Shown here: piece after piece, positions 762-27,211 of the stretch | Position numbering within the stretch: position 1 is the stretch's first letter | Layout: each line of letters begins with the position of its first letter | Virus record (IMG/VR): IMGVR_UViG_3300010150_000106 | Location: 1 to 28,613 of that record | Strand: one strand, 5' to 3' | DNA: 28,613 nt | Source of the DNA: a virus | Program-made: the position numbers and the translations under genes | The notes under the pieces: model-generated | What the model saw: only the letters and a program-made list of their open reading frames with translations | Databases searched by the model: none | What the model was told of the DNA's origin: nothing

Positions 762-1457
762 TTATTGTAATCCGAATCTTCCTTTTAATGCGTTGTAGTT
801 TTGTAGGACTTCATTTTCAGATAAAGCTCTATTGTAAAGAGATATCATATGATAATCAAATTCATCGTATGGGCCTTCTGTAAAATTTCTTCTTCTACCT
901 AACTCCCAATCATAAGTCCATAAATAATCTGTTGCGTTACCCGAGTAATCATGAGTATTTCTTAGAGTACCATTCACATAAAATTTTGTTATGTAATTTT
1001 CATCTATCACCAATGTTAAATACACCACATCTTCATTGATAGTTCCTAAATCTATGTCTTGTACAGTTACATTATTTACTCTTATGTAGTGGGTAGTTTC
1101 ACTATCCCGTTTCCATAAACAACTAAATACAGAAGAAATCGAGTACAAATATGTAGAAATTCCTGGAGATGTTGTTAGTCTAGAATCGTTGAATACAATA
1201 GTGAAAGTGGAATTTTTGATTGTGTTGTTTCTGTTTGGATTAGAGGGTAAGTCTATGTAATCATCTACTCCATCTAATTGAATTTTACCACTATCTACTG
1301 ATGAAAAATCAGGGGAATTAACAAGTGTAGCATTATACCCATTCCCACTCATATCCCTCCAAGTTGTTGAACCTGAAGTGTAAGAATTGGTATCAGCTGC
1401 ATCTAATGCTAGAACTAATCCATTTGTAACTATTTTAGGTGAATGATGTAGCCCCAT
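762..1457 (-). CDS. LamG-domain tail adhesin (231 aa)
   Basis: A complete single-domain concanavalin-like (LamG_3 type) protein. Visible signatures are NGLVLALDAADTNSY at residues 12-26, WRDMSGNGYNATL at 33-45, LDGVDDYIDLPS at 61-72, the strand set around FYVNGTLRNT at 159-168, and the family's usual ending ISLYNRALSENEVLQNYNAL then KGRFGL. The domain fills the whole protein, with no separate tail-attachment region except the first ~10 residues. Members of this family are tail-tip or fibre-associated glycan binders in phages; the ligand here is unknown. It starts 1 base after the stop of the gene at 1459-1665. Residues 12-39 are encoded by a near-exact repeat shared with the next LamG gene. 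Confidence 0.87.
   Translation of the reverse strand: MGLHHSPKIVTNGLVLALDAADTNSYTSGSTTWRDMSGNGYNATLVNSPDFSSVDSGKIQLDGVDDYIDLPSNPNRNNTIKNSTFTIVFNDSRLTTSPGISTYLYSISSVFSCLWKRDSETTHYIRVNNVTVQDIDLGTINEDVVYLTLVIDENYITKFYVNGTLRNTHDYSGNATDYLWTYDWELGRRRNFTEGPYDEFDYHMISLYNRALSENEVLQNYNALKGRFGLQ
1341..1423. repeat. 83-base direct repeat, copy 2 (LamG 5' end)
   Basis: Partner of 370-452, 971 bases away, same orientation, one mismatch. It lies inside the 231-residue LamG gene and encodes residues 12-39. Confidence 0.93.
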
Positions 1458-4600: not shown

Positions 4601-7102
4601 ATGTAATCTTAATTGAGGATAAGTTTGCTCATAGATATCTATACCGGTAGATCCTCCTAATGTTGGTGATGTTGTTCCAATACCTACCTTACCTAAAAGG
4701 TATGAATTTGAACCTGATTGTTGTATTGAACCTGTAAACTGATGTACATCATCAGAGGTGTCTCCAAACTTGGTTGAGCCACTTTGGTATATGATAGATG
4801 CTGATACGAATTCGGTATGGAATTCTTTTGCGGTGATAATACCATCTACAGTTAAATCGCCTGTTTGGTTTATAGAACCTGTAATGGTTAATCCATCACT
4901 AATGTTAGCGCTTCCACTTACATCTAAGGTGTATGCTGTATTTGGGGTGTGAGTATTTAATCCTAAAGTATATCCTAATGGAAAATAAATTGTGTTTTCT
5001 TGAGTAGGTTGTATATTATTACCAATAAGTATAATGTTACTTATATCTTTAGTTGGATAAGATACGGGAGAGGATATTGATGTAGTAGGGTTTATTGTAG
5101 AATTATTTCCTATATGGATTATATTCTCACCTGTAACACCTCCAGTATTGAATCCTGCATAAGTTCCAATCAATATAGATTGTGTTACTGCGGCATATAG
5201 TGCTGCTTCAAATCCAATAGCTACACTGTCTGTTATTGTTTTGTTTGCAGTTTGTGGTATGTACCCAAAGTTATATGAGCCAATGGCAACACTTCTAAAA
5301 ATACTTATTTCATCAGGTCCCCATAAAGATCTTCCATCAAAACTACTTACATTATTTCGACCTGAAAATTCTCCTATAAAAACATTTCTAAAAGAATGCT
5401 TTAATCCTTGGCCTACACCTGAACCTATAAATTGTGAGTTATTAACTGCACTAATATCTCTACCAGCATTAGTTCCAAAAAAAGTGCCCGCTGTAGCTTG
5501 TCCTGTTGAGGTATCTGGGTTGAGGTTGAGGATACCTGAATATGCTTTTGTGTTTCTTCCTGCTCCTGCACCAATTCCTGTTGAGAAGTATCCAGACATA
5601 TCTTTACCGGCACCCCACCCCACAAATGTATTTACAGTATAAAATGCTGAGCTTGTTAGATTAAGTGCTGCTTCATCTCCTATGTAAGTTGAGTAATCGC
5701 CTGTATAATCTCCTCCATCATCTCCACCACCTATGTAATAAGTACCACCACCTATTGTATGGTATACTTTTTTAGCACCTATATTTAAAGTACCTGTTTG
5801 GTTTATAGAACCTGTAATGGTTAATCCATCACTAATGTTAGCGCTTCCACTTACATCTAATTTGTAGGATGGTGTGGGTGTGCCTATGCCTACATTACCA
5901 CTACCATCAATTCGAAGTCTTTCTGAACCACCGGTTTGTATTCTAATATTTCCACCACCTACACCACCTTGTGTTCCTGCTATGTAATTATTAGAACCAC
6001 CCCAATCAATTCTAAAGTTAGAGTTTAAAAGTATACCTCTTTCAAAAAAAGATTGATTTGTAGCTCTGATAGAGCCACCAAGAATAATATCTCCACTAAT
6101 ATTATATCCGGAGGGTGATGTAGTAACAGGTATACTTAGGTCTGTAGCTGATAATGCTGTAGTAGTTTTTGTACCACCTTTATCATATGAAATCTCAAAT
6201 GTATAGATATTGCCTGGGGTAAGTGCTTGGTCAAAAGAGGATCCATCAGGTTTTCTAAGGTTAAAGAAAAGACCTCTTGTTGAATCGCTTCGAACTCTTA
6301 GGGTAACTTGGACTTTATCTTCAGTTAGAGTTTCATCTCCTAATAGAATAATATCTTCTACTGTAATATCTTCTCCATCGAGTTTAAACTCTACATTGTT
6401 TAATATTTCTCCTCCTAGTCCTCCATTTAAAACTAAGTTGTATGAAGAAAGACCTTCAGTACCAAAATAGTTACTAAAATTTGAAGGACTACCTTCAAAT
6501 ACAGTATCGTGTACTACTACTGATTTTTGAACAAAGTTTTGGGCGATTGCGGTTCCTGAAAATAAAGCATTTGATGCGGTGATGTCACCTTTATTTGATA
6601 AACTGAATTTGTCAGTTTTGATTTCTACATCACCATCGTTTTGGTCAGTAAATGAAATCGATGAACTATTATTCGGCCCTACAAATTTGAATCCAGTTCC
6701 TTGTAAAGTGTCACTACCCAATGTAGTTGCAGAACTACCACTATAGATTACAAATCCAGATGGAGAACCTTGAGATGCTGATGTCTGTCCTAAGAATCCT
6801 GCTGAACGAATGATGGTAGAACCCTCTTCGATTATAAAACCATCTCCAATTCTACCTCTTACAAATTGACCTTCGAAAGAACCACTAAATGACCCACTAA
6901 ATGAACCCGATGTGGGTATTGGGCCTTGAGGGCCAACAGGTCCTTGAGGCCCTTGAACTTGTACCTTAATTGTGTTTACTATCTGTTGGTCTACATTTAC
7001 ACTATTTGCTTCAGTATTCCCTGATACGATGATTTTTTTATCGTCAGTAGTAATAACAACTTGTGTATTATCTGGTGTTATGTTTATGGGATTTATAGCC
7101 AT
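1658..7102 (-). CDS. Giant tail fibre protein (1814 aa), mosaic
   Basis: A very long fibre, probably a trimeric receptor-binding protein. In order: an N-terminal strand-rich segment; a short collagen-like GPQGPVGPQGP stretch at about 51-61; SGSFSGSFSGSF repeats at 65-76; a region at about 101-340 paralogous to residues 134-362 of the 1197-residue fibre; a YadA-like head module at about 450-720 (motifs such as FVGWGAGKDMSG, FFGTNAGRDIS, IGTYAGFNTGG); then about ten NVGIGT(T/P)SPS.KL(D/H)V.G repeats spaced through the rest; and a C-terminal beta domain ending EGLMVWSDGTEWFVIQSKNV. No intramolecular chaperone (S74 peptidase) signature is seen at the C-terminus. The YadA-like module is flanked by an exact 68-base repeat. 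Upstream lies AGAGGT about 14 bases before the ATG. The fibre role is confident; which fibre it is cannot be told. Confidence 0.9.
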   Translation of the reverse strand: MAINPINITPDNTQVVITTDDKKIIVSGNTEANSVNVDQQIVNTIKVQVQGPQGPVGPQGPIPTSGSFSGSFSGSFEGQFVRGRIGDGFIIEEGSTIIRSAGFLGQTSASQGSPSGFVIYSGSSATTLGSDTLQGTGFKFVGPNNSSSISFTDQNDGDVEIKTDKFSLSNKGDITASNALFSGTAIAQNFVQKSVVVHDTVFEGSPSNFSNYFGTEGLSSYNLVLNGGLGGEILNNVEFKLDGEDITVEDIILLGDETLTEDKVQVTLRVRSDSTRGLFFNLRKPDGSSFDQALTPGNIYTFEISYDKGGTKTTTALSATDLSIPVTTSPSGYNISGDIILGGSIRATNQSFFERGILLNSNFRIDWGGSNNYIAGTQGGVGGGNIRIQTGGSERLRIDGSGNVGIGTPTPSYKLDVSGSANISDGLTITGSINQTGTLNIGAKKVYHTIGGGTYYIGGGDDGGDYTGDYSTYIGDEAALNLTSSAFYTVNTFVGWGAGKDMSGYFSTGIGAGAGRNTKAYSGILNLNPDTSTGQATAGTFFGTNAGRDISAVNNSQFIGSGVGQGLKHSFRNVFIGEFSGRNNVSSFDGRSLWGPDEISIFRSVAIGSYNFGYIPQTANKTITDSVAIGFEAALYAAVTQSILIGTYAGFNTGGVTGENIIHIGNNSTINPTTSISSPVSYPTKDISNIILIGNNIQPTQENTIYFPLGYTLGLNTHTPNTAYTLDVSGSANISDGLTITGSINQTGDLTVDGIITAKEFHTEFVSASIIYQSGSTKFGDTSDDVHQFTGSIQQSGSNSYLLGKVGIGTTSPTLGGSTGIDIYEQTYPQLRLHNSNTGTNISSGFLIGLTATGVELKNYENSPITISTNNSPRMTILGGGNVGIGTPNPAYKLHVDSGTLNTVAMFNSTDANAFIIISDNTTNSFLRSENSKFYIANSSTDDSTFNVDLSTGNVGIGTTSPSEKLQVNGNIAISGSNATLQLREGSAELYKFTAGGTSLDMTVNGNDAISIFQSGQVGIGTTSPQKLLDVNGDVRVKRNIYGADGNYIGFFTDGGSAIPLKGRSLALTTNFANNAPTNGLYVQGDVGIGTTSPSEKLTVEGAISSSGNISTKGALLIDGTDGLYLNQEGSSVFSPSPGIFYSGGINQGWYFQVPNNGQEKFSFKLGSTNPTRQFRVVDASWNSLFQVQGNGNVGIGTTSPSSKLHVSGSGGGSDVLLVEPAGAPTISLKSNSTLTDYSGLHIGNKYLLLTKNSGAIFQQIQGGLRFANGFAAKSVITENGYFGIGFNSTTGINYPLDVKGDARISGSGIFTDDLDVTGSINLDINQSGRGIELGTYITSPMIKGIGTSLYLDSSGGVIQSLKNIIPNRDLETSRELGTDTRRWNKLFSANITDNNVDGKVGIGRGYFTPTATLDVSGSGRFDGAVQITGSLNLVENSTRTIEINPSDRKIVIGGATDYNAQLHLNNGRIQFGRDGSAGGGYFFNNDSDMQAQMANSFYVYDSSIVGDKPNPSFGEVSQISGGGGSVRGGFLQITRFKDTSNDTTFGREKVAHYINAIEGGTGPFYLSKYFNSGSEAFSVKTSGDTYISGSLGIGTTSPQAKLHVSGTSDVFLVEGSGSTLMSVDGVNGRLFEVTDDLSDSLFSVNTIAGLPVLEVFADNTIKMGAFNQGDLVVTGSNVGIGTDAPSYKFDLSGSMNHAGASYIVPATTIGGSGDTTILTGSTFDNATLIKASHNGVSNGDYTLELPSASLSTNRSIRIISDDSTNSNHNIDIVPAGSETLDGGTSGFTINRNYEGLMVWSDGTEWFVIQSKNV
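4860..4927. repeat. Exact 68-base direct repeat, copy 1
   Basis: Identical to 5793-5860. It encodes residues 726-748 of the 1814-residue fibre, which read LDVSGSANISDGLTITGSIN followed by QTG. The identity stops abruptly on both sides. Confidence 0.95.
5793..5860. repeat. Exact 68-base direct repeat, copy 2
   Basis: Identical to 4860-4927 and encodes residues 415-437 of the same fibre. The two copies bracket about 865 bases that encode the YadA-like head module. Both copies are in the same reading frame, so recombination between them would remove the module and leave the frame open. Confidence 0.95.
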
Positions 7103-7103
7103 C

Positions 7104-7484
7104 TCATCGAGTAACCTCTTTAGAAAGTTTTACCTTTCCCTCTAATATTCTTGTTACAATAGAACCTGATGTTATTTCCAAGTCGTAGACTGCTTCACCA
7201 AATGAAAAATTAGAAGAGGATGTGGCTGAAATGAATACTCCAATTGAACCAGATGTTGGTGGTGTAGTTCCATTTGAACCACTAAAGTTTAGACCTGTTC
7301 CATCCGAATCCCTTGATGATGATAGTGTAATGATTACATCTGTTGATGAAACACTTGGTCTGATTTGCATCTTACCACTATGGTCTGTTAAATCAACTGG
7401 ATTGGAGTTAGAATCTAAATATTGTAGGTTGAAATCTAATGTCGTTCCCTGTTCAATTGTAAAAGAGTATTTTCCTGCTGCCAT
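7104..7484 (-). CDS. Small beta-sandwich tail protein (BppU-N-like)
   Basis: A 126-residue protein starting MAAGKYSFTIEQGTTLDFNL. Features are an IEQG(T/A)T opening, SNPVDLTDHSGKMQIRPSV at about 27-45, a SGSIGVFISATSSSNF segment, a YDLEITSG strand and a RILEGKVKLSKEVTR ending. This arrangement resembles the small domain found at the N-terminus of siphophage baseplate upper proteins, which occurs as a stand-alone gene next to fibre genes in many phages. It probably links or caps a fibre, but that is inferred. It ends 1 base before the ATG of the 1814-residue fibre. No good Shine-Dalgarno sequence precedes its ATG, and a 75-base gap separates it from the gene upstream. Confidence 0.75.
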   Translation of the reverse strand: MAAGKYSFTIEQGTTLDFNLQYLDSNSNPVDLTDHSGKMQIRPSVSSTDVIITLSSSRDSDGTGLNFSGSNGTTPPTSGSIGVFISATSSSNFSFGEAVYDLEITSGSIVTRILEGKVKLSKEVTR

Positions 7485-7559: not shown

Positions 7560-9137
7560 TTAGGGCCAAGTTGATAAAGCTGCTCTTTTCCAACCAGCAG
7601 AAGTTTTTACATAAAAATAATCATCATCATAAGATATATCACCTTGACTTCCTTGTGAATCTGAGGTGCCTGTTGGTGTTATAGAAGTTGGTATACCTAC
7701 TCTACCATCAGATGTTACTTTAAATAAATCTGTTCCATTTGAATCTTCAACAAGGAAAGCCATTTGGGCGCTAGTTGTAAATCCACTTTTTATATGAAGT
7801 CTAGCAGTAGGTGTAGAAGTTCCTATTCCCACTTTCATATAAGTATAAGTTGGTCTACCTAATACAATGGAGTAAGATTGAGTTAAAGTAATAGAATTCC
7901 CTATACCAATTGCCCCTAGTATACCACCTGATGAATTCCCATAAGTAACATTATACCCAATAAAAATATTTTGTTGCCCCGTAAGAGCAGTAGCACCATT
8001 AGCACCAGCATTTCTTCCTAAAGCAATATTGTATTGACCAGTTGTTTGATTTTTAAGGGCAGCATTACCTATTGCTATACTATGATCTCTAGTACTATTT
8101 AATAGATTTTGACTACCATATGCAAAATTATTATCACCTGAGTTGTTATAACCTACACGATATCCTAAAAAGACATTACCATTCCCCGTATTATTTTCCC
8201 CAGCTTCTTGTCCTACAAATAAATTATTAGAGCCTTGATTATCTTTTCCTGCGTTTCTTCCAAAACTCACATTGTAATTACCTTGGTTATTTTGTAAGTT
8301 ATTTGAACCAATAGATACATTATGCTCTCCTAATGTATTAGAATTGAGAGATAAATACCCTATTCCTGCATTATTTCCACCAGTATTACTTTGGCCTGCT
8401 TGTTGTCCTATGAAAGTATTAAAAGTTCCTTGGTTATTTTCTCCAGCGTTACCTCCTATTAATGTATTACTTCCAGATGAATTTAGTCCTGCTTTAGCTC
8501 CTATAGCTAAAGTTCCATCTGCATCAATCGATTCAGAATGTAAATTTCTAGCTGCTTGGAAACCTATTGCTACAATATTGGCAATAAAACCTACATTTTC
8601 TCCTGCACTACTTCCTATAAATACTGATTGATTACTTGTGCTAAATCTTCCTGCACTAGATCCTATTATGGTCTGATTGCTACCTGTATAGTATTCCCCG
8701 GCTCTATCACCTATAGCGATAGTAGAACTAGCTAAAGAAAATTGGGCTGCATCATTACCAATAGCTGTATTTCTAGTACCTGCATCATTGCTTAATGCTC
8801 TAAATCCCAATGCAGTTGAATATTGACCCCCATTCCCTGCTGCTGCTCCAAATGATATATTAGTGGCATCACTTCCTGTGATTATACTACTTCCATTAAA
8901 TTTATATTCGTCAGCATCAATAAACCCTGTTAAATCTATATCTTGAGTGGCTGTATTGCCTGTATCTAATACTTGTTGAAGATTTTGAGAACCACCACCT
9001 CCACCTCCACCACCACTAGCAATTGATGAAGACACATTTGAGATTCCTTGGATAGATAAGCTACCAGAAATATCTACTCTGCTAGCAGTTATAATTAAAT
9101 TACCCGTAGAACCATCATAAAATATACCTTGTGCCAT
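7560..9137 (-). CDS. YadA-head-like tail fibre protein (525 aa)
   Basis: Starts MAQGIFYDGSTGNLIITASR, a typical short fibre N-terminus. Residues 42-49 are eight consecutive glycines, an apparent flexible hinge. Residues 95-430 consist of 14-16-residue repeats such as NTFIGQQAGQSNTGGN and NLFVGQEAGENNTGNG, the left-handed beta-roll pattern of YadA-type trimeric adhesin heads. One VGIGTSTPTARLHI motif follows at about 436, then a C-terminal domain with GDISYDDDYFYVKT and a terminal WKRAALSTWP, an ending I recognise in other phage fibre proteins. It likely forms a trimeric fibre or a distal segment attached to the larger fibres. It follows the 1197-residue fibre gene by 8 bases with AAGGTAG upstream of the ATG. 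Confidence 0.86.
   Translation of the reverse strand: MAQGIFYDGSTGNLIITASRVDISGSLSIQGISNVSSSIASGGGGGGGGSQNLQQVLDTGNTATQDIDLTGFIDADEYKFNGSSIITGSDATNISFGAAAGNGGQYSTALGFRALSNDAGTRNTAIGNDAAQFSLASSTIAIGDRAGEYYTGSNQTIIGSSAGRFSTSNQSVFIGSSAGENVGFIANIVAIGFQAARNLHSESIDADGTLAIGAKAGLNSSGSNTLIGGNAGENNQGTFNTFIGQQAGQSNTGGNNAGIGYLSLNSNTLGEHNVSIGSNNLQNNQGNYNVSFGRNAGKDNQGSNNLFVGQEAGENNTGNGNVFLGYRVGYNNSGDNNFAYGSQNLLNSTRDHSIAIGNAALKNQTTGQYNIALGRNAGANGATALTGQQNIFIGYNVTYGNSSGGILGAIGIGNSITLTQSYSIVLGRPTYTYMKVGIGTSTPTARLHIKSGFTTSAQMAFLVEDSNGTDLFKVTSDGRVGIPTSITPTGTSDSQGSQGDISYDDDYFYVKTSAGWKRAALSTWP
8991..9014 (-). repeat. Glycine-codon tract (8 Gly) in the 525-aa fibre
   Basis: Eight GGN codons in a row, appearing as acc/tcc/cca-type triplets on the plus strand, encode residues 42-49. 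The tract is markedly GC-richer than its surroundings and is repetitive enough to be prone to in-frame slippage, which would lengthen or shorten the hinge. Confidence 0.85.
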
Positions 9138-9145
9138 AATCTACC

Positions 9146-12100
9146 TTAAATTATTTGTACCCAACCTGTTGATTTATAAATATAGAGTCCTTCAGTACTA
9201 TCAGTTTGATACACAATCAAACCTGTGGATGGGGATGAGATTGAAGTTCGTTGTGCTGATGTCATTCTAGGGAAGACAACACCTTTAGAAGTTGAGGCTA
9301 TGTCTAGGATTGCGGATGCATCGGGGGTGGTGTTATTAATACCTACTTTACCATCTGTAGTTAAGGAAAGATTTTCTTGTCCAAGAGCACCTTCTAAAGT
9401 AATTCCTCCTGCTGCCCCATATATTTTTGAACCTATACTTCCCCCAACTGCACCAGTGTTGGTTTTAATAACAACACCTCTATCTCCAGCACTATTTTTA
9501 AATTTAAAGTCAGTAGAACCAGCAGGGGTAAATTCAAAACATGCTTCTGTAGGAGAGCCACCTCCAGTTCCTAATAGAATTTTTCCACTTCCACTTACAT
9601 GAAATAGACCTTGTGGTGATGCAGTACCAATACCTACATTACCGTCACCGTCAAAGGTCATTTCTTTTCTACCATCAGTTAGATTGTTGATAGTTAGACC
9701 TCCATCTAAGTGTCTTATTTGGTAAGTATCGTTTCCATCTCTTGCTAATTCAAATCCATGAGATGTAGATGATCCACTCGATAATATAAACCCATCTCTT
9801 ACTTCTAACTTCTCAGATGGTGATGTTGTACCTATGCCTACGTTACCATCAGATTGTAAGCGCATTACCTCTGTTGGGGTGGTTTGCCCAACACTTAAAC
9901 GCATTGAACTTTCTTGAAGATTTCTATTGTCGTTTGTTACATCAATATACCCAAATGTAGTAAGTGCGCCACTTGCGTTTTCAGTTCTAAAGTCAAAACC
10001 GACTGAAAACCCATCGGCTGGGCTTATTGCAAGATCGTGGTCAAAAACATAGCGTTTTATAAGATTGGAATCTCGTACATAAAACCCACCATTTGCTGTA
10101 ATGCCTATTACTTCTACACCTGAACTATTTTGACCTGAAAGTAATATAGAAGATCCTCCTGATCCTTGTTTTAAACCAAGGACTTTTTGAGAAGAACTAT
10201 TTTGCCCTACCATATTAACCCTAGCAGCAATATCGCCACCAATTCTAAGATTTGTACTCGAAATTATTAAAGTGGATGCTGCTGAGATTGAAGATACATT
10301 TGTTATACTACCGTTACCTAACTCAATTATACCTTTATTACTATTAGTTACGTCTTGTAATGTTAAAGTGGGAGATCCAGAGGATCGCATTGTCATACGA
10401 CCGTTAGATGAGTTTATAGTAAAAGGTACAAATCCTAATGAGGTTTGGGGGCCTATATCAACTTTACCATCATCTGTTATAACTAAAGAAGCAGATGCAT
10501 TTGCATTTTCTACTCTTAAAGCAGTAGTTGAGGATGTTGTTCCTGATCCTTTAACTTGGAGTTTTGAGGATAGTGATGTTGTACCTATACCTACGTTACC
10601 TTTTAAAGCAGTAGTTGTGATGCTATCGTTACCTAAAACAACAGAGTTGCTACCGATGCCTTGAGCACTATATCCAATCACAACTTCGTTTGTATTTCCG
10701 TTTTTGTAAGATGCTTTTGTTCTGCTACCTAAGTATAGTGAATTGTTTACATGAGTAATAGTGTTGCTGCTTCCATCTTCGTAACCTGCATAATAACCTA
10801 AAGCTACGTTATTACTACCAGTAGCTACATATCTCATAGTACCAAGACCTAATGCAGCATTACCATTTTGTCTGATAGACTGACCTGCGAGGTGACCCAT
10901 GGTGATGTTGTTGTTACCAGCAGTATTGTATTGCAGTGTTGAACTACCTATCGAAACATTACCTCCTCCAGTTGTTACGTTGGTTTGGTTATCAATACCA
11001 ATAGCAGTATTTCTAGTACCTGTGTTTCCTCCTGTGTTTGTTGCATTTCGTAAACCATTACCTAATGCAATAGAATATATGTACGTTGAGGATGCTTGAT
11101 CTGGGTAGTATACTACTGGATCTCCGGCAACCCCAATCGTTCTTTCTGCTGCGGTTGAGCCGTTGAGCTCAAGCTTGTAAGATGGTGATGTTGTACCTAT
11201 GCCTACATTACCATCTTCTTGAATCCGCATATGGTTGTTTGCACCATTGGTCTGAAAGGTTATACCTCTGCTGGAATTAGCTCTTATTAAAAGACCATCG
11301 GTGCCGGGTGTACCATTTGTAGTAATATTTCCATATTCAGAACCATTTACATACCAACCAACTGTTCCTTTATCAGTTGCTCCGGCATTAGAATCATTTA
11401 ATTTTAATGCTACTTGCCCATCATCTCCTAAGATGTTGATTTCTCTTTGATCACCCGTAACATTAATCGACCCACTTACATCTAATGAACCTGTAATTTG
11501 AACATCCTGATTTAAAGGATTTACATATGAGGCTGTATCAGCAAATGAGGAACTTACCTCTTTTATAATTTCGTGAGATGCAGAAACAGCATATGAGGCA
11601 TATGATGCTGTACCATAAAAGTTGGTTGCATATACATCACCATTGATTCTATATCCATTTGAGGATGCTGTAACAGGTATACTTAAATCTGTTGCTACAA
11701 TAGGGGTTATAGTCTTTTGACCTTCATCATCAAACGATATCTCAAAAGTATAAATGTTGTTTGGAGATAAAGTTTGAAAAAATTGAGAGTCATTAGGTAA
11801 TCTAATTTCAAATGATATACTACCTATAGAATCATTTCTGTTTCTTATACTGATTGTAATTTTATCATTTGTTAATGAGGTTTCATCTTTAACTACAATA
11901 TCTGATAATGATAATCCTGAAAATGGTAATGCAAATTCTACATTATTTACTATTTCTCCACCTAAAGTACCATCTAAATATAAACTATATCCACCCTCAC
12001 CTTCTGAAAGATAAGAATCAAATGGAGAACCATTTATATCAGAACCACTTAATATAACTGATTTTTGAATAAAGTTTCTTGCGATTGCAGTACCACTAAA

Positions 12101-12739
12101 TAAAGCATTTGATGCTGTAATATCTCCACTATTTTGTAGAGTAAACTTATCTGTTCGGATTTCAAGGTCTCCACCATTTTGATCACTGAATGAAATGGAG
12201 GAACTATTATCAGTTCCTACAAATTTAAATCCTGTTCCTTGTAAGGTATCCGCCCCTAATTGGGTGGTGGCACTACCACTATAAAATACAAACCCAGATG
12301 GCCCTAATCCTAAAGATGCCGATGTTTGACCCTTAAATCCTCTGGTGAATAAAAGAGCGGATGAGTTTAATACTTGAATACCACCATCACCTAAACCACC
12401 TTCAAATCGGGGTGCTGTTAAGTTCTCATCTATTGTTACATTTCTCTTAAAAAATGCATCTTCATTAAAAGTTGCATCTGCATTAAGTACTTGAAATCCA
12501 ACTTCGGATTCTTCACTTATATATGCTCTTGATGTTCCTGATTCGATTCTATCTTGGTAACCATTAATACCAGATGGTGGGATGTTAGTTAACCCACTAC
12601 CATTACCTTTAAAAGATCCTGTAATTTTTAGGGTATCGACAACACTACCAGTACCATCATATAGAATACTACCATCAGTTTGTAATACTCTTTGATAGGT
12701 ATCTTGTATCTGTTGGCCTGTTAAATCTGGTAACGCCAT
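9146..12739 (-). CDS. Large tail fibre protein (1197 aa), mosaic
   Basis: Begins MALPDLTGQQIQDTYQRVLQ, an N-terminus seen on many phage fibres and probably the virion attachment end. Residues 134-362 are paralogous to residues 101-340 of the 1814-residue fibre (both contain SGF(V)F/IYSGS, DTLQGTGFKFVG, GDITASNALFSGTAIA and DLSIPVT). A segment at about 412-430 with ITGSLDVSGSINVTG precedes a YadA-like head region at about 555-710 and about five GNVGIGTTSPSxKL motifs. The C-terminus carries LDIASTSKGVVFPRMTSAQR then GLIVYQTDSTEGLYIY and W, a fibre ending common in Bacteroidota proteins and their phages. No S74 chaperone domain is seen. No Shine-Dalgarno sequence precedes the ATG; the leader is A-rich. 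Confidence 0.89.
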   Translation of the reverse strand: MALPDLTGQQIQDTYQRVLQTDGSILYDGTGSVVDTLKITGSFKGNGSGLTNIPPSGINGYQDRIESGTSRAYISEESEVGFQVLNADATFNEDAFFKRNVTIDENLTAPRFEGGLGDGGIQVLNSSALLFTRGFKGQTSASLGLGPSGFVFYSGSATTQLGADTLQGTGFKFVGTDNSSSISFSDQNGGDLEIRTDKFTLQNSGDITASNALFSGTAIARNFIQKSVILSGSDINGSPFDSYLSEGEGGYSLYLDGTLGGEIVNNVEFALPFSGLSLSDIVVKDETSLTNDKITISIRNRNDSIGSISFEIRLPNDSQFFQTLSPNNIYTFEISFDDEGQKTITPIVATDLSIPVTASSNGYRINGDVYATNFYGTASYASYAVSASHEIIKEVSSSFADTASYVNPLNQDVQITGSLDVSGSINVTGDQREINILGDDGQVALKLNDSNAGATDKGTVGWYVNGSEYGNITTNGTPGTDGLLIRANSSRGITFQTNGANNHMRIQEDGNVGIGTTSPSYKLELNGSTAAERTIGVAGDPVVYYPDQASSTYIYSIALGNGLRNATNTGGNTGTRNTAIGIDNQTNVTTGGGNVSIGSSTLQYNTAGNNNITMGHLAGQSIRQNGNAALGLGTMRYVATGSNNVALGYYAGYEDGSSNTITHVNNSLYLGSRTKASYKNGNTNEVVIGYSAQGIGSNSVVLGNDSITTTALKGNVGIGTTSLSSKLQVKGSGTTSSTTALRVENANASASLVITDDGKVDIGPQTSLGFVPFTINSSNGRMTMRSSGSPTLTLQDVTNSNKGIIELGNGSITNVSSISAASTLIISSTNLRIGGDIAARVNMVGQNSSSQKVLGLKQGSGGSSILLSGQNSSGVEVIGITANGGFYVRDSNLIKRYVFDHDLAISPADGFSVGFDFRTENASGALTTFGYIDVTNDNRNLQESSMRLSVGQTTPTEVMRLQSDGNVGIGTTSPSEKLEVRDGFILSSGSSTSHGFELARDGNDTYQIRHLDGGLTINNLTDGRKEMTFDGDGNVGIGTASPQGLFHVSGSGKILLGTGGGSPTEACFEFTPAGSTDFKFKNSAGDRGVVIKTNTGAVGGSIGSKIYGAAGGITLEGALGQENLSLTTDGKVGINNTTPDASAILDIASTSKGVVFPRMTSAQRTSISSPSTGLIVYQTDSTEGLYIYKSTGWVQII

Positions 12740-13671: not shown

Positions 13672-16600
13672 TCAGAGTCCGTACTTTGTTCTAGTAGATG
13701 GAAGTGGTGTTGTGTTTATAAGTACATCAGTTGATTTAGTAGAGGAGTTTGTATCAAAGTCAGATTCTTCACTCTCCACAATATCTCTGTGAGGTACTAT
13801 TGGTCTTCCTAATTCACTTTCGATTTGCTTTACCCTATCGATGGTTTGTTGAACACTCAATACCCTTTCGTTTATCTGCCTTTGTCTTTCTTCCATCACC
13901 CTACTCCACTTAATATCTTCATTGACTTTTAAATCTTCCAATCTCAAAGTGGATAAGTTTGTGTTTGTGTCTACATCCAAATTACCAGCATCAGCAGTTT
14001 GTGATGTGTATATTAATACATTGGGGTCAGCAGTAAACACTTCGATTACAGGCTTTCCATCTGGCGTATCGGGTGAATCTGTAGTCAGAGAATCGGATGT
14101 CATCTTACACCCTAAGTACCTCAGATTATTCAATGCCAATGGTAGGTTGTCAGTCGATACAACTGATGGAACTAATGATGATGAGTTACTCAATCTTAAC
14201 GATGCGGAGAGTGCTGTGTCATAAAAGAAGACTTCACTCTTTGCGTATTTGGATTTCCTACCATTGAGTGCTGATGATGCTGTTGGTTCGTAATTCCAAT
14301 ATCCATTAGAACCTGTATTCCAATTTACACCAAATCCTACATCTGCTCCTGTATAATAGTTAAGGAAGGTGTATCTGTATGTGGATGGTGAGTACATATC
14401 CTTAATTTGAGGATTGGCTACACTCACAATGTCATCTCTCTGTGCAGATACCAATGTGGTTGATGTTACATCTAAAGTAGTATCGTACTTTGGTTGAGTA
14501 TATGATACATTAACTCTTGATACTGCTTTAGGCCTTTCCAATGTATGAGGTTCGATAAGGATACCTGAATCGTAATCTGCTCTCGCAGGTAAGGTTTGTC
14601 TGATTTGTTCGAAGATTGAGAAATCGTATCTTGCTAACATATCAATTGTATCGTTGATTAAGTTTTTCGAACTATATTTTTGGAATACCAATCTTCTTAA
14701 ATTATCAAACTCTGGATTACCATCATTGTAACCAGGTCTAATATCAGGACTGCCGAAATAATCATCACCATCAAAGAAGCCTGTGTGGTTGTAGATATCT
14801 TCATCATACATTCTAGTTGCTGATAGATATACACCAACTTTGTTTGTGTCCACAGGTGCGGTGTCATATTGTGACCTCTCTTTCTTTGTATCAACATCTA
14901 ATATACCACTCAATGTGTTTGCTTCAACTCTAACTTTGTTTGTCAGTATATTATTAGAACCAACCGATGGTGTTCTCGTATAATACTCTTCTGTTACCCC
15001 TGCCAAATCGGATGATTGGAATCCAGACAAAGAGGCAGATATTGGATATCCATTATCGGTTGATGTAACCTTTTGATTTGGGTGTTGTGATAAGATTCCA
15101 TCAGGATCCGTTACACTCTTTATTTGTGAATCAGGGATGAATCTAAACTTTAAGTCGTAGTAAGATGAGGTTGGTTGATTACTATGGTATGATTCTCTTG
15201 AAAGTGTATGTTCGTCAATGACCGTATCATTTAGTGGTTTAGTCCAATATCTTATTTCTTGAATCAAGCCACTTAAATAGTTGTCAGTAGATGAAAGTGA
15301 TATCCCATCTGTTGTTGATAGTTCTTTACCGATTGTCAATGTACCACTACCAGTCCATGCTGCGTTGTACGATGATTCGGTAGAACCATCTACTGAAATG
15401 GTAGATGACTTACTTACTGATATCTCATCCTTTCTGTTCTTTCTATAGATGAGTTTGTATTCGTTGTCTTGTGTAATATCATTTACGGCAGTCTTTCTTT
15501 GTACCAACAAAGTTCCCATTTTGGAATCAAAGATAGGTACATCAGATATAGATGCTGATTTGTATCCACTACTACCGCTCAAATATAAATGTATGTTACC
15601 ATTATTTGATGATGCAGTTGGTTCTAACATAACGACAAAATCAGTTCCTTTATTTAGAACTGTCGTTGTTCTGTTTAGGTTTTGTTGTACGAACAATTCA
15701 ATCGTATTGATTGTGTCAGTAACACTATCCCACGGAACATCAATGTAATTGTCACTACCATCGAATCTTAAATGGTATACAAATCTGTCATGCTCCCAAA
15801 GAGGTTTTACATCAGATACAACAGGCCCTCCATATTCTTTGATTGATAAGAATGATTGTGGAATACCATAGGTAGATATCAATGCTTTAACTGCTCTAGC
15901 AGAACCCTTTGTTTTCAAAAGGTATGGAATATTATTTACGATTCTTCTCCAAACCTCATAGGTGATTTGTTCATCTGGTTTTGATTTTAGTGAACCACTC
16001 TGAATTGGATTACCTAACTTATCTGTTCCTACTGCAAACTTCCAAAGGTCAGACCTCTGTTTACCATGTGAAAGTTTCCACCCCATTGCCTTTGCCGTAT
16101 CATACAACATTTCGTTTGGTATACCATCGTATGGGTGTTCTTCTCTATCGTTGATTGAAGTAAGTGCTTTGATGTAACTCCATGTGATATCAAAGTGGTG
16201 TCCAATCATATCAACAAAAAGAATGTAATCTGAATTGAGTGGTTCTTCAACAATTGATGATGGAATAACCTTTGTCAATCTTGAATCGTTTAATGCGTCA
16301 TAAACACTTGCCGAACTAATCAACCCATTGTAATGAGAAATACCTTCAGAAGAATTGACACTGTAGTTTACCGTTGGATATGTACTTTGTTTTGGCCAAG
16401 GTGAGATAACATAGTTAGACGAACTATAATGTGTATACAAAGAACCAGTTGCTTCGTGATACATCCACCTTTCCCACCCATCCATACCACTTATAACACC
16501 ATCTCTTCTCGTTATTGATTGCGATATGTTTGTTATAGCTTCTGAACCACTAACTGATTCTAATGTAGTTATTCTGCTGTTATACGATTCAATTAACTCT

Positions 16601-17520
16601 AATTTGTATTTAAAGTTATTGACCCTTTCCACAGCGGATGAGTATTTTACAAAGTTACCAAAGTATGTGTAATCTATATTCAGTTCGATATTCCCAAACG
16701 AACCACTAATGTACTTATCAATGATTTGTTGAGATGTAGATAGGTTTGCATCTAATAATGTATTCCAAGTTTTAAAATCAGTTCCTTTTGAACCACCATA
16801 AGTTCCTACATCAATTTTAAAGTTTGGAGTAGAGAAGTCTTCGTTCTCCTCGGCTTCAGTTCCTTCATAAACAGAAATCCTTTCGATGTATGAATCTCTG
16901 ACTACAACATCAATCGATGAAAACTCATTCTCTAAATTAGATGGTAATGGTTTGTATAGTTTGACAACTACACCCAATTCTACATCAAAGCTAATATCTG
17001 TAATTGTGTACAATCTGTTTTGACCGAAGTTCAATACTAAGTTTAGTTTGTAGTTTGTTTCACCGTCAACTAAATCTTTTAGCTCTGATAACGGATTCTG
17101 TTTAAAGGTTTGGATACTCCTAAATGTTCCTGCTGATAATTGTACTTCTGTAGAATCTGTAGATATGTTTTCTACTTTGAGTGATGGAACTACATTCTTC
17201 AAAAAATTGTAAACAATACTATAGTATCCTTTTGTAATGGTACTTAATCTAATATCCTTTTCTGGAGAAAGTAATACATCATATGTTCCGTTACCACCAT
17301 TCGATGATTCGTAAGAAAGTGGTTCTGTGTTTGATTCTACTAATGTACTTCTTGAGTAGATGTGTTTCTCTACAATAGAATCATCCAATAATGACTTTGA
17401 GCATGGTTCTGTAGTCTTATCTAACCTATCACTATCATCAATCGAATATGTCTGAACATTTGATACAGGCACCTTTGAGTCAGTTACTATGTTGGGGTTT
17501 TGAAATCTATCTATAGCCAT
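13672..17520 (-). CDS. Large baseplate-associated protein with embedded LamG domain (1282 aa)
   Basis: No signal peptide. Residues 1-430 are mixed alpha/beta with no recognised domain. Residues 430-575 contain a conserved block (HHFDITWSYIKALTSIND, AMGWKL, EVWRRIVNNIPYLLKTKGSA, LISTYGIPQSFLSIKEYGGP). Residues about 578-775 form a LamG/concanavalin-like module (HLRFDGSDNYIDVPWD at 583-598, then SGLIQEIRYWTKPL at 750-763). The end at about 1205-1245 is a charged coiled coil (MEERQRQINERVLSVQQTID). It lies downstream of gp6, the place T4 uses for gp7/gp8, and its size exceeds T4 gp7 (1032 aa), but I see no sequence basis to call it gp7. AGGGGT precedes the ATG. Virion protein at the baseplate periphery is the most likely role. 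Confidence 0.8.
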   Translation of the reverse strand: MAIDRFQNPNIVTDSKVPVSNVQTYSIDDSDRLDKTTEPCSKSLLDDSIVEKHIYSRSTLVESNTEPLSYESSNGGNGTYDVLLSPEKDIRLSTITKGYYSIVYNFLKNVVPSLKVENISTDSTEVQLSAGTFRSIQTFKQNPLSELKDLVDGETNYKLNLVLNFGQNRLYTITDISFDVELGVVVKLYKPLPSNLENEFSSIDVVVRDSYIERISVYEGTEAEENEDFSTPNFKIDVGTYGGSKGTDFKTWNTLLDANLSTSQQIIDKYISGSFGNIELNIDYTYFGNFVKYSSAVERVNNFKYKLELIESYNSRITTLESVSGSEAITNISQSITRRDGVISGMDGWERWMYHEATGSLYTHYSSSNYVISPWPKQSTYPTVNYSVNSSEGISHYNGLISSASVYDALNDSRLTKVIPSSIVEEPLNSDYILFVDMIGHHFDITWSYIKALTSINDREEHPYDGIPNEMLYDTAKAMGWKLSHGKQRSDLWKFAVGTDKLGNPIQSGSLKSKPDEQITYEVWRRIVNNIPYLLKTKGSARAVKALISTYGIPQSFLSIKEYGGPVVSDVKPLWEHDRFVYHLRFDGSDNYIDVPWDSVTDTINTIELFVQQNLNRTTTVLNKGTDFVVMLEPTASSNNGNIHLYLSGSSGYKSASISDVPIFDSKMGTLLVQRKTAVNDITQDNEYKLIYRKNRKDEISVSKSSTISVDGSTESSYNAAWTGSGTLTIGKELSTTDGISLSSTDNYLSGLIQEIRYWTKPLNDTVIDEHTLSRESYHSNQPTSSYYDLKFRFIPDSQIKSVTDPDGILSQHPNQKVTSTDNGYPISASLSGFQSSDLAGVTEEYYTRTPSVGSNNILTNKVRVEANTLSGILDVDTKKERSQYDTAPVDTNKVGVYLSATRMYDEDIYNHTGFFDGDDYFGSPDIRPGYNDGNPEFDNLRRLVFQKYSSKNLINDTIDMLARYDFSIFEQIRQTLPARADYDSGILIEPHTLERPKAVSRVNVSYTQPKYDTTLDVTSTTLVSAQRDDIVSVANPQIKDMYSPSTYRYTFLNYYTGADVGFGVNWNTGSNGYWNYEPTASSALNGRKSKYAKSEVFFYDTALSASLRLSNSSSLVPSVVSTDNLPLALNNLRYLGCKMTSDSLTTDSPDTPDGKPVIEVFTADPNVLIYTSQTADAGNLDVDTNTNLSTLRLEDLKVNEDIKWSRVMEERQRQINERVLSVQQTIDRVKQIESELGRPIVPHRDIVESEESDFDTNSSTKSTDVLINTTPLPSTRTKYGL

Positions 17521-20252: not shown

Positions 20253-20260
20253 ACCTCCTT
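20253..20260 (-). promoter_or_regulatory. Strong ribosome binding site AAGGAGGT
   Basis: The minus strand reads AAGGAGGT followed by AAA and the ATG of the 677-residue gene. It overlaps the TAA stop of gp6. It is the best Shine-Dalgarno match in the window; most other genes have only partial (AGGT, AAGGA) or no match. Confidence 0.8.
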
Positions 20261-22190
20261 AGAATGATTGAGTTACTACCTTACCTCTAATATCGTTATT
20301 AGGGAATTTAACTTCAAATATAGATGGGTCTTTAGCAGGATATATTACACCATTCTTTGTAGCGTTACTAATGCTATATTTGTTTGGTGAATAGTTTCCA
20401 TTGAATCTGTTGAATATCTTTAAACCACCATTTCCTTCTCTGTCAGGTCTGAGAACACTCTGAACACCATCCACTCTGTCTAACATTACATAAAGTTTTG
20501 ATAGTTGGATTGGTTCACCGATTCTCCAATTGTCAATGTTGAAATAATTCTTTAACTCTTCTATACACCTCAACAATACCTCATTGGAATTGTAGTCAGG
20601 CATAACAGTAATTTCAAAATCAACACCGATGTTAATGATATGTGCGTCTTTGATGTTGACTGCATCAGTTAACATTCTGTAGTATGAGATATAGTTTCTT
20701 AGATTGTTTTTGGTTGCTGGATTCAATCCTACCAAATTCTTATTCAAATCATATCCCAATGTATACAAATTCAATGCCAATGGATTCGGTATTTCAGATG
20801 AGATTGTGGTATTGTCTTTTTTCTTATCTTCGATTTGGTAGTCTTGCATCAAATATGCTTTTGCTACTGAACCAAATTGTGGAGGTAATGCGTAACACCT
20901 CATTACATAATCTTCTCTAGTGACAGTTCTATTCTGTGCTGCGAAGAATGCCATAGCATTGTTACGAATCTCTTCGTTTGTTTCTTCACTCCTACCACCT
21001 CTAGCGGGTTCTGTATTGGTTACAGCTAATGAGTTTCTGATGAATCTGACAACACCACTATCCAAATTAGATTCGTTCTTAAACGATGTTACTACAGATG
21101 TAATGTTAGTTAAGTCTTTTGCAGATACATTATCAGATACACCATTACCCACCAAATACTCAACAGTCAATGTTGTGTTTGATGGTGCGACTCCATATGT
21201 CTTTGTGTATAAGAAATTCGATGGGTCAATCCCTTGGTCTAAATCACCAACGATGTTGTAGAGTGCTGAACCCACATTGTCAGGATTAGGAACAATTTCT
21301 TCATCTGCGTTCTGAGATATACCAGCACCAAACTGAATAACCATCTCACCCTTATCTTCCATTCTTGTAATGAATCTCTTTGGAACTCTTTTTAGTTCTA
21401 AAAGATATGGTGCATCACCACTATACTGAGAATAGTTGGTTGAGTTGTCTGAATTGTTTTCAACTTGATTGAATACAGTATCTTGTGCTAAGTAAGGAAC
21501 ATGCGTCCAAGTGTCACCATCCGAATCTGTTATACTTTTGATTCGAATAAGGTTAGGGTCTTCAATCTTAATCTTATCATAAATTTTTGGTGAACCGAAT
21601 GTGAATGTTTTACTCTCAATAGTTCCACTTGATACCTTTACACTTTTCTTCAGAAGATAGTATACGGGTATGTTGTTTGTTTCATCAATCTGATAAACCG
21701 TTATTTCTGTAGGACTAAAAGATGATGATACCGAAAAGTCTACTTGACCTTGAGCTATAAAGTTTACATTGTTGTTTTGTGATGAACCAACTTGCATCCC
21801 ATCTTCAATTGTCATAGCATAATCGAAATCAGGTGTAACATCGTCACCACTTCCTTTGGCGGGAACTAATTGGAATACATCTAATGTAGTTGTAGCAGGA
21901 ACAAAGTTCTTTGGTTTGTATCCATATGCTGATACGATGTTGAATAGGTTTCGGTTTTCTTCTGCTGATAGTAATAGAGATTCTCTTAATTGTGTATCTG
22001 TATAGAATGATAAAACATCACCCACATATGATGCCATCTCCATAAACATCATTCCTGGAGATGATTCGTTGAAATCATTATATGTATTGGGGAAATATGT
22101 TTTGGTGAAATCAACTAAGTTCTTTCTGAACTCACCGAAGTCCCTTCCTAATAGTGATACATCTTTTTTTACTAAATCGTTATTAGCCAT
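20259..22190 (-). CDS. 6: Baseplate wedge protein gp6-like
   Basis: 643 residues, close to T4 gp6 (660). The N-terminal region with FNESSPGMMFMEMASYVGDV (about 40-59) followed by LSFYTDTQLRESLLLSAEEN and a YGYKPK motif is the signature of T4-like gp6/baseplate J-like wedge proteins. A conserved QNRTVTREDYVMRCYALPPQ segment lies in the second half, and residues near 545-575 (FNIDNWRIGEPIQLSKLYVM) match the family's C-terminal region. In T4 two gp6 chains form the core bundle of each wedge, joining neighbours into the inner baseplate ring. It follows gp25 by 8 bases, the same pairing as in T4-like genomes. Confident assignment. Confidence 0.93.
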   Translation of the reverse strand: MANNDLVKKDVSLLGRDFGEFRKNLVDFTKTYFPNTYNDFNESSPGMMFMEMASYVGDVLSFYTDTQLRESLLLSAEENRNLFNIVSAYGYKPKNFVPATTTLDVFQLVPAKGSGDDVTPDFDYAMTIEDGMQVGSSQNNNVNFIAQGQVDFSVSSSFSPTEITVYQIDETNNIPVYYLLKKSVKVSSGTIESKTFTFGSPKIYDKIKIEDPNLIRIKSITDSDGDTWTHVPYLAQDTVFNQVENNSDNSTNYSQYSGDAPYLLELKRVPKRFITRMEDKGEMVIQFGAGISQNADEEIVPNPDNVGSALYNIVGDLDQGIDPSNFLYTKTYGVAPSNTTLTVEYLVGNGVSDNVSAKDLTNITSVVTSFKNESNLDSGVVRFIRNSLAVTNTEPARGGRSEETNEEIRNNAMAFFAAQNRTVTREDYVMRCYALPPQFGSVAKAYLMQDYQIEDKKKDNTTISSEIPNPLALNLYTLGYDLNKNLVGLNPATKNNLRNYISYYRMLTDAVNIKDAHIINIGVDFEITVMPDYNSNEVLLRCIEELKNYFNIDNWRIGEPIQLSKLYVMLDRVDGVQSVLRPDREGNGGLKIFNRFNGNYSPNKYSISNATKNGVIYPAKDPSIFEVKFPNNDIRGKVVTQSF

Positions 22191-22198
22191 CTTACTAC

Positions 22199-22636
22199 CT
22201 ATTCTACAGTTGTTGTTCCAGCAGAATCAACAAACACCACTATTTGTTGATTAGCTCCTTGCTCAGTAACTCTAAATGATAATTGTATCTTTACATAGTT
22301 TCTGTCAGGTTCTGTATCAACAATGATATCATCAATAATTATGTATGGTAACCATAAATTTATATCTTCTCTTAAAGATTCGGATAACCTATCTGACAAA
22401 TCCAATCCGATGTTCTCAAATAACAATGAGTACACATCCGAACCGAATTCTGGTTGAAATGGTCTTTCACCTTTTCTTGTTAAGAGCAAGTTCTTTAAGT
22501 TTGAAACGGATTGTTCTTCAGTAGTATAACTTAGATTAAACAAACCACCAAGCTTTCCATATGGTAATGTAACTCCAACTGCTACATTATCATTAAAGTC
22601 TATAGGGTTGTATCTATATTCAGTCCGTTCGCGCAT
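22199..22636 (-). CDS. 25: Baseplate wedge protein gp25-like
   Basis: 145 residues (T4 gp25 has 132). The GPW/gp25 family core is clear: LKNLLLTRKGERPFQPEFGS at about 47-66, then DVYSLLFENIGLDLSD, a helix with SLREDINLWLPYI, and final strands with VKIQLSFRV. In T4 gp25 sits at the base of the sheath, starts sheath polymerisation and binds the gp6/gp53 core. AAGGAAAA precedes the ATG. It is separated from the neighbouring genes by 3 and 8 bases, consistent with co-translation with gp6. Confidence 0.95.
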   Translation of the reverse strand: MRERTEYRYNPIDFNDNVAVGVTLPYGKLGGLFNLSYTTEEQSVSNLKNLLLTRKGERPFQPEFGSDVYSLLFENIGLDLSDRLSESLREDINLWLPYIIIDDIIVDTEPDRNYVKIQLSFRVTEQGANQQIVVFVDSAGTTTVE

Positions 22637-26275: not shown

Positions 26276-26572
26276 TTAGTTTTCGTTTAATACAGATAAC
26301 AACTCACTCTCTCTGTAAATGTGGTATGTGTCTTTACCATTTCTATGTTTGAATCCAGTTCCTTCCAATAGGACTGTATCACCAACCTTTACACTCATTG
26401 GGATTGTGTCCCCAGTTTGTGTAAACAATCCGTTACCAACTGCGATAACTTCACCTAACATAGTGGTTTCTGAACCAGATGGTTTATATAGACCACCTGA
26501 TGTTTTTTCATCATGCCGTTTTACAATCTTAATAACGACTCTATCACCTAAAGGTTTGTAGTTCCATTCCAT
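26276..26572 (-). CDS. groES: GroES-like co-chaperonin (gp31 analogue)
   Basis: 98 residues, the usual GroES length. It starts MEWNYKPLGDRVVIKIVKRH (compare KPLGDRV at GroES N-termini), has a mobile-loop region DEKTSGGLYKPSG at 21-33, GEVIAVGNG at 40-48, VKVGDTVLLEGTGF at 61-74 and an ESELLSVL ending. The protein would cap host GroEL, since no GroEL gene is present in this window; T4 uses gp31 in the same way to fold its capsid protein. The loop carries GGLYKP where E. coli GroES has GGIVLT, so the hydrophobic GroEL-contact tripeptide is altered. It lies 3 bases after clpP and 5 before the HD gene. Confidence 0.92.
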   Translation of the reverse strand: MEWNYKPLGDRVVIKIVKRHDEKTSGGLYKPSGSETTMLGEVIAVGNGLFTQTGDTIPMSVKVGDTVLLEGTGFKHRNGKDTYHIYRESELLSVLNEN

Positions 26573-26575
26573 AAC

Positions 26576-27211
26576 TTAAATTATTTTATCTATGATTCCT
26601 AATTCCAATGCTTCTGACGATGATAGGAAATAATCATTCTGTTGATTTGCCTCCCACCATTTTTTATCTTTCTTTGTACACTCTTCCATAATAGTGTTAC
26701 AATCATCTTCCAATTGTTCTGCGAACTTTGCATTCGATTTGATGTCACCTAACTTACCAAAATTGATTGTTGATAATTGGTGAACCATAATCTTTGAATG
26801 TTTGGAAGCTGCTCTAACACCAGTCCCAGCGGTTAATAACAATGCAGCAGCGCTCATAGCTGAACCCCTACATACCATATTTGTTTTGATACCTTCGTTG
26901 GTATTTAATGAACGAACATAATCAATCAACCCTAATGTTTCTACAACATCTCCGCCAGGTGAATTAATCAATAGTGTAATGGTTTTTAAATCAGGGTTTA
27001 TCTTTCTGAGTAATCTTACTTTTGAAATGATATCGAATGTTAATCCCTGAATAATATCGTCTTGAACTAGAATGATATTATCTTTGATATCCAATCCGTA
27101 ATCAAACTCCCTAAACTCTTGAAACCACTTTTCTTTTTCCGATGGGGTGGTGGAATAGTTTACTTGTGCGTCACCACTTGTGGTTCTCCCCTCATTATAT
27201 AAATCACTCAT
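26576..27211 (-). CDS. clpP: ClpP-like serine protease
   Basis: 211 residues, about the size of bacterial ClpP. The catalytic triad is complete: Ser120 in GSAMSAAA, His144 in IMVHQ, and Asp193 in NDYFLSSSEALELGIID. The oxyanion/substrate loop SPGGDV is at 84-89. The first ~40 residues are polar and lack a clear propeptide. ClpP forms a tetradecameric barrel that degrades substrates delivered by ClpX/ClpA; no such ATPase is in the window, so host partners or self-limited processing are possible. A prohead protease role is less likely, because T4-like phages use an unrelated gp21-type enzyme and this sequence looks like true ClpP. It heads the proteostasis operon, behind a Bacteroidota-type promoter. 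Confidence 0.92.
   Translation of the reverse strand: MSDLYNEGRTTSGDAQVNYSTTPSEKEKWFQEFREFDYGLDIKDNIILVQDDIIQGLTFDIISKVRLLRKINPDLKTITLLINSPGGDVVETLGLIDYVRSLNTNEGIKTNMVCRGSAMSAAALLLTAGTGVRAASKHSKIMVHQLSTINFGKLGDIKSNAKFAEQLEDDCNTIMEECTKKDKKWWEANQQNDYFLSSSEALELGIIDKII

Follow-up and report, generated by a model that had tools for sequence, protein, structure and literature searches.

The host range of phage T4 is described as being expanded by duplications of a small domain in the gp37 adhesin (Tetart et al. 1996, J Mol Biol 258:726, as cited in PMC9603124 and PMC6957217). The window analysed here is a linear virus record of 28,613 bases of the IMG/VR type, a metagenome-derived fragment that encodes a giant tail fibre. 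To the extent that gp37 is described in the citing papers, the window fibre is like it in having an in-frame duplication of a segment within a fibre gene, and the window phage has baseplate-wedge genes of the T4 type. The two differ in that gp37 involves a small adhesin domain with a host-range phenotype, whereas the window has an internal module of roughly 290 residues known from sequence alone.

Collagen-like repeats are known to serve as recombination points in the antireceptors of S. thermophilus phages, and an 81-nt loss has been described in a collagen-like gene of a virophage (PMC7242381). In these genes, as in the window fibre, repeated sequence permits the in-frame loss of a fibre segment, but collagen-like repeats are short and occur in arrays, whereas the window has two dispersed copies of a connector. 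The Bartonella adhesin A (BadA) is a trimeric autotransporter whose domain arrays have been reshuffled by recombination, for example through a join with a 39-bp overlap (PMC8859334). In being a fibre-like adhesin of modular build, with arrays subject to reshuffling, it resembles the window fibre. BadA is however a bacterial gene with pseudogene reservoirs, and it has no homology to the window fibre in the searches made. Domain shuffling has also been reported for phage receptor-binding proteins, the fibres of which are mosaics of exchangeable modules (PMC10684548). That study is agnostic on mechanism, whereas sequence-level joints and a series of alleles are available here. By analogy, the joint in the window fibre probably represents the same kind of process as the gp37, collagen-like, BadA and domain-shuffling cases.

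The repeated connector and the module between its copies

The gene carrying the repeat has been assigned to the phage tail fibres on the basis of PHROG family matches and its location near baseplate genes (Table 1). An exhaustive scan for exact repeats has identified a 68-nt pair, identical and in one frame; no other exact direct repeat in the 28,613-nt window is as long. The copies are spaced by 933 nt, corresponding to 311 codons, and the gap between them is of 865 nt (288.3 codons). The fibre thus has long same-frame direct repeats flanking a discrete segment, and the claim of an earlier note on this DNA, that copies identical in sequence and frame bracket about 288 codons, is borne out. 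The VGIGTPTPSYK motif that leads into copy A has an apparent degenerate form (LGLNTHTPNTAYT) upstream of copy B in the protein. Since at least nine connectors of the VGIGT type are found in the 1814-aa fibre gene, the 68-nt repeat is considered to be one connector in two copies.

Table 1. Features of the window referred to in the text, with positions counted from its first base
Feature	Coordinates	Strand	Remarks
Repeat copy A, N-terminal side	5793-5860	-	aa 415-437, LDVSGSANISDGLTITGSINQTG; exact 68-nt match to copy B
Repeat copy B, C-terminal side	4860-4927	-	aa 726-748, LDVSGSANISDGLTITGSINQTG; exact 68-nt match to copy A
VGIGTPTPSYK motif leading into copy A	5861-5911	-	From translation
Bracketed module, 865 nt	4928-5792	-	xIGxxAGxN-type repeats; homologous to the repeat protein 7560-9137
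Segment after copy B (LTVDGIITAKEFHTEFVSASIIYQSGSTKFGDTSDD)	4733-4858	-	Widespread in other phages; 89% identity in L096/L097
Giant modular fibre gene, 1814 aa	1658-7102	-	ORF; PHROG tail-fibre matches, E 7e-24 to 1e-15
Probable fibre assembly protein, adjoining the fibre	7104-7484	-	phrog_1084, E 7e-24; phrog_3304 (L-shaped tail fibre assembly), E 9e-6
Separate repeat protein, largely xIGxxAGxN repeats	7560-9137	-	ORF list, BLASTP
Paralogous giant fibre	9146-12739	-	67% nt identity over the shoulder region
Large structural gene	13672-17520	-	Nearest named relatives: Microcystis phage Mel-JY01, Flavobacterium phages immuto
Baseplate-wedge genes	20259-22190, 22199-22636	-	PHROG matches
LamG-type genes	1-489, 762-1457	-	One LamG-type protein of the window matched to Pfam

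Identity at the DNA level far exceeds that expected from the shared peptide. With the amino acids kept constant, the codon usage of the window predicts that 13 of the 22 codons should differ and about 9 be identical; none differs, and the probability of 22 identical codons out of 22 is about 1e-9. Chance, or shared protein sequence alone, therefore does not account for the identity. Other peptides shared within such fibres have 8/16, 8/14 or 11/12 identical codons. Beyond the 68 nt the identity falls immediately to roughly 60-65%, giving the pair sharp edges. These edges, together with the identity of all the codons, indicate that the copies either have a recent common ancestry or have been homogenised. 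The 22 codons include 15 silent sites with no silent change, which bounds the silent divergence (dS) to below about 0.2, so that the dating of the identity is weak and a moderately old duplication would also be compatible with it. The earlier note had spoken of recent gene conversion or insertion: the direction of that claim holds, the copies being related or homogenised, while its date does not follow from so loose a bound.

The same note had described the module as YadA-head-like. The module has no match to a YadA family in Pfam (E-values up to 10), no sequence relative in PDB (E up to 1) and no YadA-type hit with a three-sequence profile (E up to 10). The head repeat of YadA has a period of about 14 residues, which is not found in the module, where the xIG-type motifs are mostly spaced by 16-22 residues. 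A single-sequence AlphaFold2 model of residues 398-790 has a mean pLDDT of 38 and is unusable for judging whether the fold is the left-handed beta-roll trimer of YadA-type heads. The resemblance to YadA therefore appears to be a likeness by eye.

The module is instead related to the phage's own protein of xIGxxAGxN repeats (BLASTP E-value 1e-6, window 8013-8900). The paralogous fibre also has a module of this kind following the first VGIGTTSPSYKL motif (E-value 2e-7 to the same repeat protein), where it occurs without flanking repeats and without a duplicated connector. The GC and GC3 contents of the module are like those of the remainder of the fibre gene, and by these two measures it has no signature of foreign import.

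Searches of IMG/VR with the repeat, the module, the N- and C-terminal parts of the fibre and the paralogous fibre have revealed relatives only for the 50 residues that follow copy B (LTVDGIITAKEFHTEFVSASIIYQSGSTKFGD...), which are common to many phage fibres. No relative of the repeat was found in IMG/VR with a 35-nt piece of it or with its degenerate peptide pattern. The module has no relative in IMG/VR, INPHARED or GTDB genomes, in a search that may omit near-identical records. Two contigs of the same species, L002 (99.7%) and L057 (97.1%), stop short of the fibres, at window positions 14238 and 16903 respectively.

In other phages the segment after copy B is situated behind unrelated sequence or behind a short VGIGT connector. 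This segment (TAKEFHTEFVSASIIYQSGSTKFGD) is up to 89% conserved among otherwise unrelated fibres, and the sequence preceding it is very different. In L097 a VGIGT connector lies directly before xxTAQEFHTEF and the module is absent, so that such a junction is tolerated elsewhere. From the sequence, the L097 junction appears to be of the kind that a deletion in the window fibre would leave.

Exact repeats and natural alleles in other fibres

A survey of the fetched loci yielded, after dereplication, 318 ORFs with 500 or more residues, 64 of which are fibre-like by a rule of motif density. Exact dispersed repeats of 30 nt or longer are present in 19 of these 64, a proportion biased upwards because about half of the loci had been fetched with a repeat-rich fibre, and repeats of 68 nt or longer in 7, the window fibre included. 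In all 318 ORFs together there are 213 pairs of exact dispersed repeats that reach 30 nt, and every one of them keeps the frame. Exact in-frame repeats in fibres are plainly not unique to the window. Relatives recovered through the gene of the baseplate region have repeats of 80, 80, 65 and 45 nt. The paralogous fibre of the window has no long repeat, which indicates that the repeat is unnecessary for the architecture.

Comparison of 79 pairs of near-identical fibre-like ORFs has provided a full series of alleles from one phage, at about positions 6383-6957 of the L154/L122 locus and likewise in L125 and L127. The long allele, L154, has two copies of a connector that are 387 nt apart and differ in a tract of 51 nt. 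L122 differs from it by 18 mismatches in 17,899 nt, all of them within 51 nt of copy A of this repeat, where L122 has the sequence of copy B, resulting in an exact repeat of 121 nt. In L125 and L127 exactly 387 nt (129 codons) are missing between the copies, of which a single hybrid remains, and there is one further mismatch to the right of the joint. The connector is shared by an outgroup, Flavobacterium phage immuto; among the 15 informative sites it has the L154 state at 14 and the L122 state at none. L154 is therefore regarded as ancestral and L122 as converted. L122 returns to unique sequence within seven shared bases, from which we infer that the shared stretch is too short for a k-mer assembly chimera.

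Alleles differing by the exact repeat-to-repeat unit are thus present in the fibre of another phage, and the series indicates that natural fibres undergo both in-frame deletion between copies and gene conversion that gives rise to an exact repeat. The conversion tract between copies, polarised by the outgroup, is that of L122 against L154, and the sharp edges of the window pair would be consistent with such a tract. No homologue of the baseplate-region protein encoded at window positions 13672-17520 was detected in the fragments of the allele series.

Other length and content differences were noted in the compared pairs. In each of the pairs L090/L093 and L092/L094, the first roughly 1,750 nt of the fibre are about 90% identical, and beyond them all similarity is lost. 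The breakpoints of both pairs lie at the same conserved SASIGG motif, with unrelated distal parts beyond, which makes an exchange of distal parts between phages at a fixed joint likely. The tail genes at L070:3414-4550 and L074:3667-5688 are 97-99% identical with an in-frame insertion of 885 nt. They were considered as a second case of deletion between repeats and rejected, as no long repeat flanks the insertion; judged from the sequence, this module was apparently gained or lost by another route. The L064/L073 pair has a length difference of 288 nt.

Origin of the window pair and its likely behaviour

We consider it probable (roughly 0.62) that the two connector copies were made identical by intragenic recombination and now act as a passive recombination joint. 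The starting point would have been two related inter-module connectors, the flanks of which are still about 65% alike, and which would have been homogenised within the gene, most simply by gene conversion during phage replication. A similarity of 60-65% outside the 68 nt is what would be expected if related connectors had been converted in their core. For classical homologous recombination, identity over about 50-150 nt is required (PMC8262927). As the copies are identical, in the same frame and longer than the approximately 50 nt usually needed in T4-type phages, they could act as such a joint. Crossing-over between them would remove or duplicate a unit of 311 codons, and the junction after a deletion would be an intact VGIGTPTPSYKLDVSG...TGSINQTGDLTVDGIITAKEFHTEF. 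Recombination of the UvsX type could carry out either change; the presence of a recombinase is suggested by the T4-type baseplate genes, and its gene would be situated outside the fragment.

The main competitor of homogenisation is a recent insertion of the module together with a copied connector, from another fibre gene or by duplicative exchange, in a manner resembling target duplication. The exact copies at both edges of the module favour such an event, as do the similar module without flanking repeats in the paralogous fibre and the occurrence of the segment after copy B in phages devoid of the module. We regard it as a possible though unlikely origin, because the base composition of the module equals that of the remainder of the gene, the databases searched have provided no donor, and the similarity retained outside the 68 nt would be unexpected from a simple insertion. 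Conversion rather than module insertion is tentatively suggested as the origin of the window pair.

An assembly artefact has to be considered for a metagenome-derived IMG/VR fragment in a region covered by no second contig: two fibre variants could have been merged at the shared 68-nt sequence, or a short stretch repeated there. Such an artefact seems improbable in view of the reading frame, which runs uninterrupted across both copies for 1814 codons, the unique flanks on both sides of each copy and the similar exact repeats in many independent contigs. A length of 68 nt is, moreover, below usual read and k-mer lengths. Selection on the DNA sequence itself, as for an RNA structure or a protein-binding site, could maintain identity without recent recombination, but silent sites differ freely among the other connectors of the gene and the repeat sequence is found nowhere else in the IMG/VR searches, making this explanation most improbable.

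The in-frame design and the natural deletion alleles of another fibre could also be taken to indicate a dedicated cassette, with repeats under selection as sites where the module can be reversibly lost and regained, comparable to host-range switching by phase variation. This is very unlikely: inspection of the window gene list has revealed no recombinase gene, storage copy or reverse-transcriptase system, the many lengths and spacings of fibre repeats look opportunistic, and a deletion between direct repeats is irreversible without a second genome. Likewise, inspection of the genes listed for the 28.6-kb fragment revealed no ORF recognisable as that of a diversity-generating retroelement (reverse transcriptase, template repeat). 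A dedicated switch and a retroelement of this type have both been set aside, as no gene for either was recognised in the fragment, and the 68-nt pair is probably an ordinary recombination-prone joint. It is doubtful that exact in-frame connector repeats in the giant fibres of flavobacterial and marine T4-like phages constitute a general, selected mechanism by which receptor-facing modules are rapidly lost, gained and swapped within a population and in which conversion keeps the joints identical.

If the homogenised copies do behave as a passive joint, a deletion allele of 933 nt is predicted, in which the sequence N-terminal to copy A is joined directly to DLTVDGIITAKEFHTEF. The proposal of the earlier note that recombination would delete the module and leave the gene intact agrees with the coordinates, 933 nt being in frame; the process itself has been seen in another giant fibre rather than in the window gene. 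By analogy with that fibre, deletion of the module may take place in the source population, and it would be expected to alter receptor binding. These observations provide a concrete route at the sequence level by which the length and module content of a phage adhesin could change without damage to the frame. The most useful incidental result of the analysis is the allele series. The L154, L122 and L125 states record conversion and deletion in natural phages that are otherwise identical, so that the rates and effects should be open to measurement.

A few further similarities and gene products of the window are recorded here. The first parts of the two LamG-type genes share 83 nt with one mismatch (370-452 and 1341-1423; 178 nt at 79%) and appear from their sequence to be another recombination-prone pair, in this case between genes. 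The separate repeat protein and the paralogous fibre have in common a 32-nt stretch that is 94% identical (8751-8782 and 10991-11022), perhaps as a result of exchange between the genes. Near the baseplate genes, the products of 26276-26572 and 26576-27211 resemble by eye a GroES-like protein and a ClpP-type protease.
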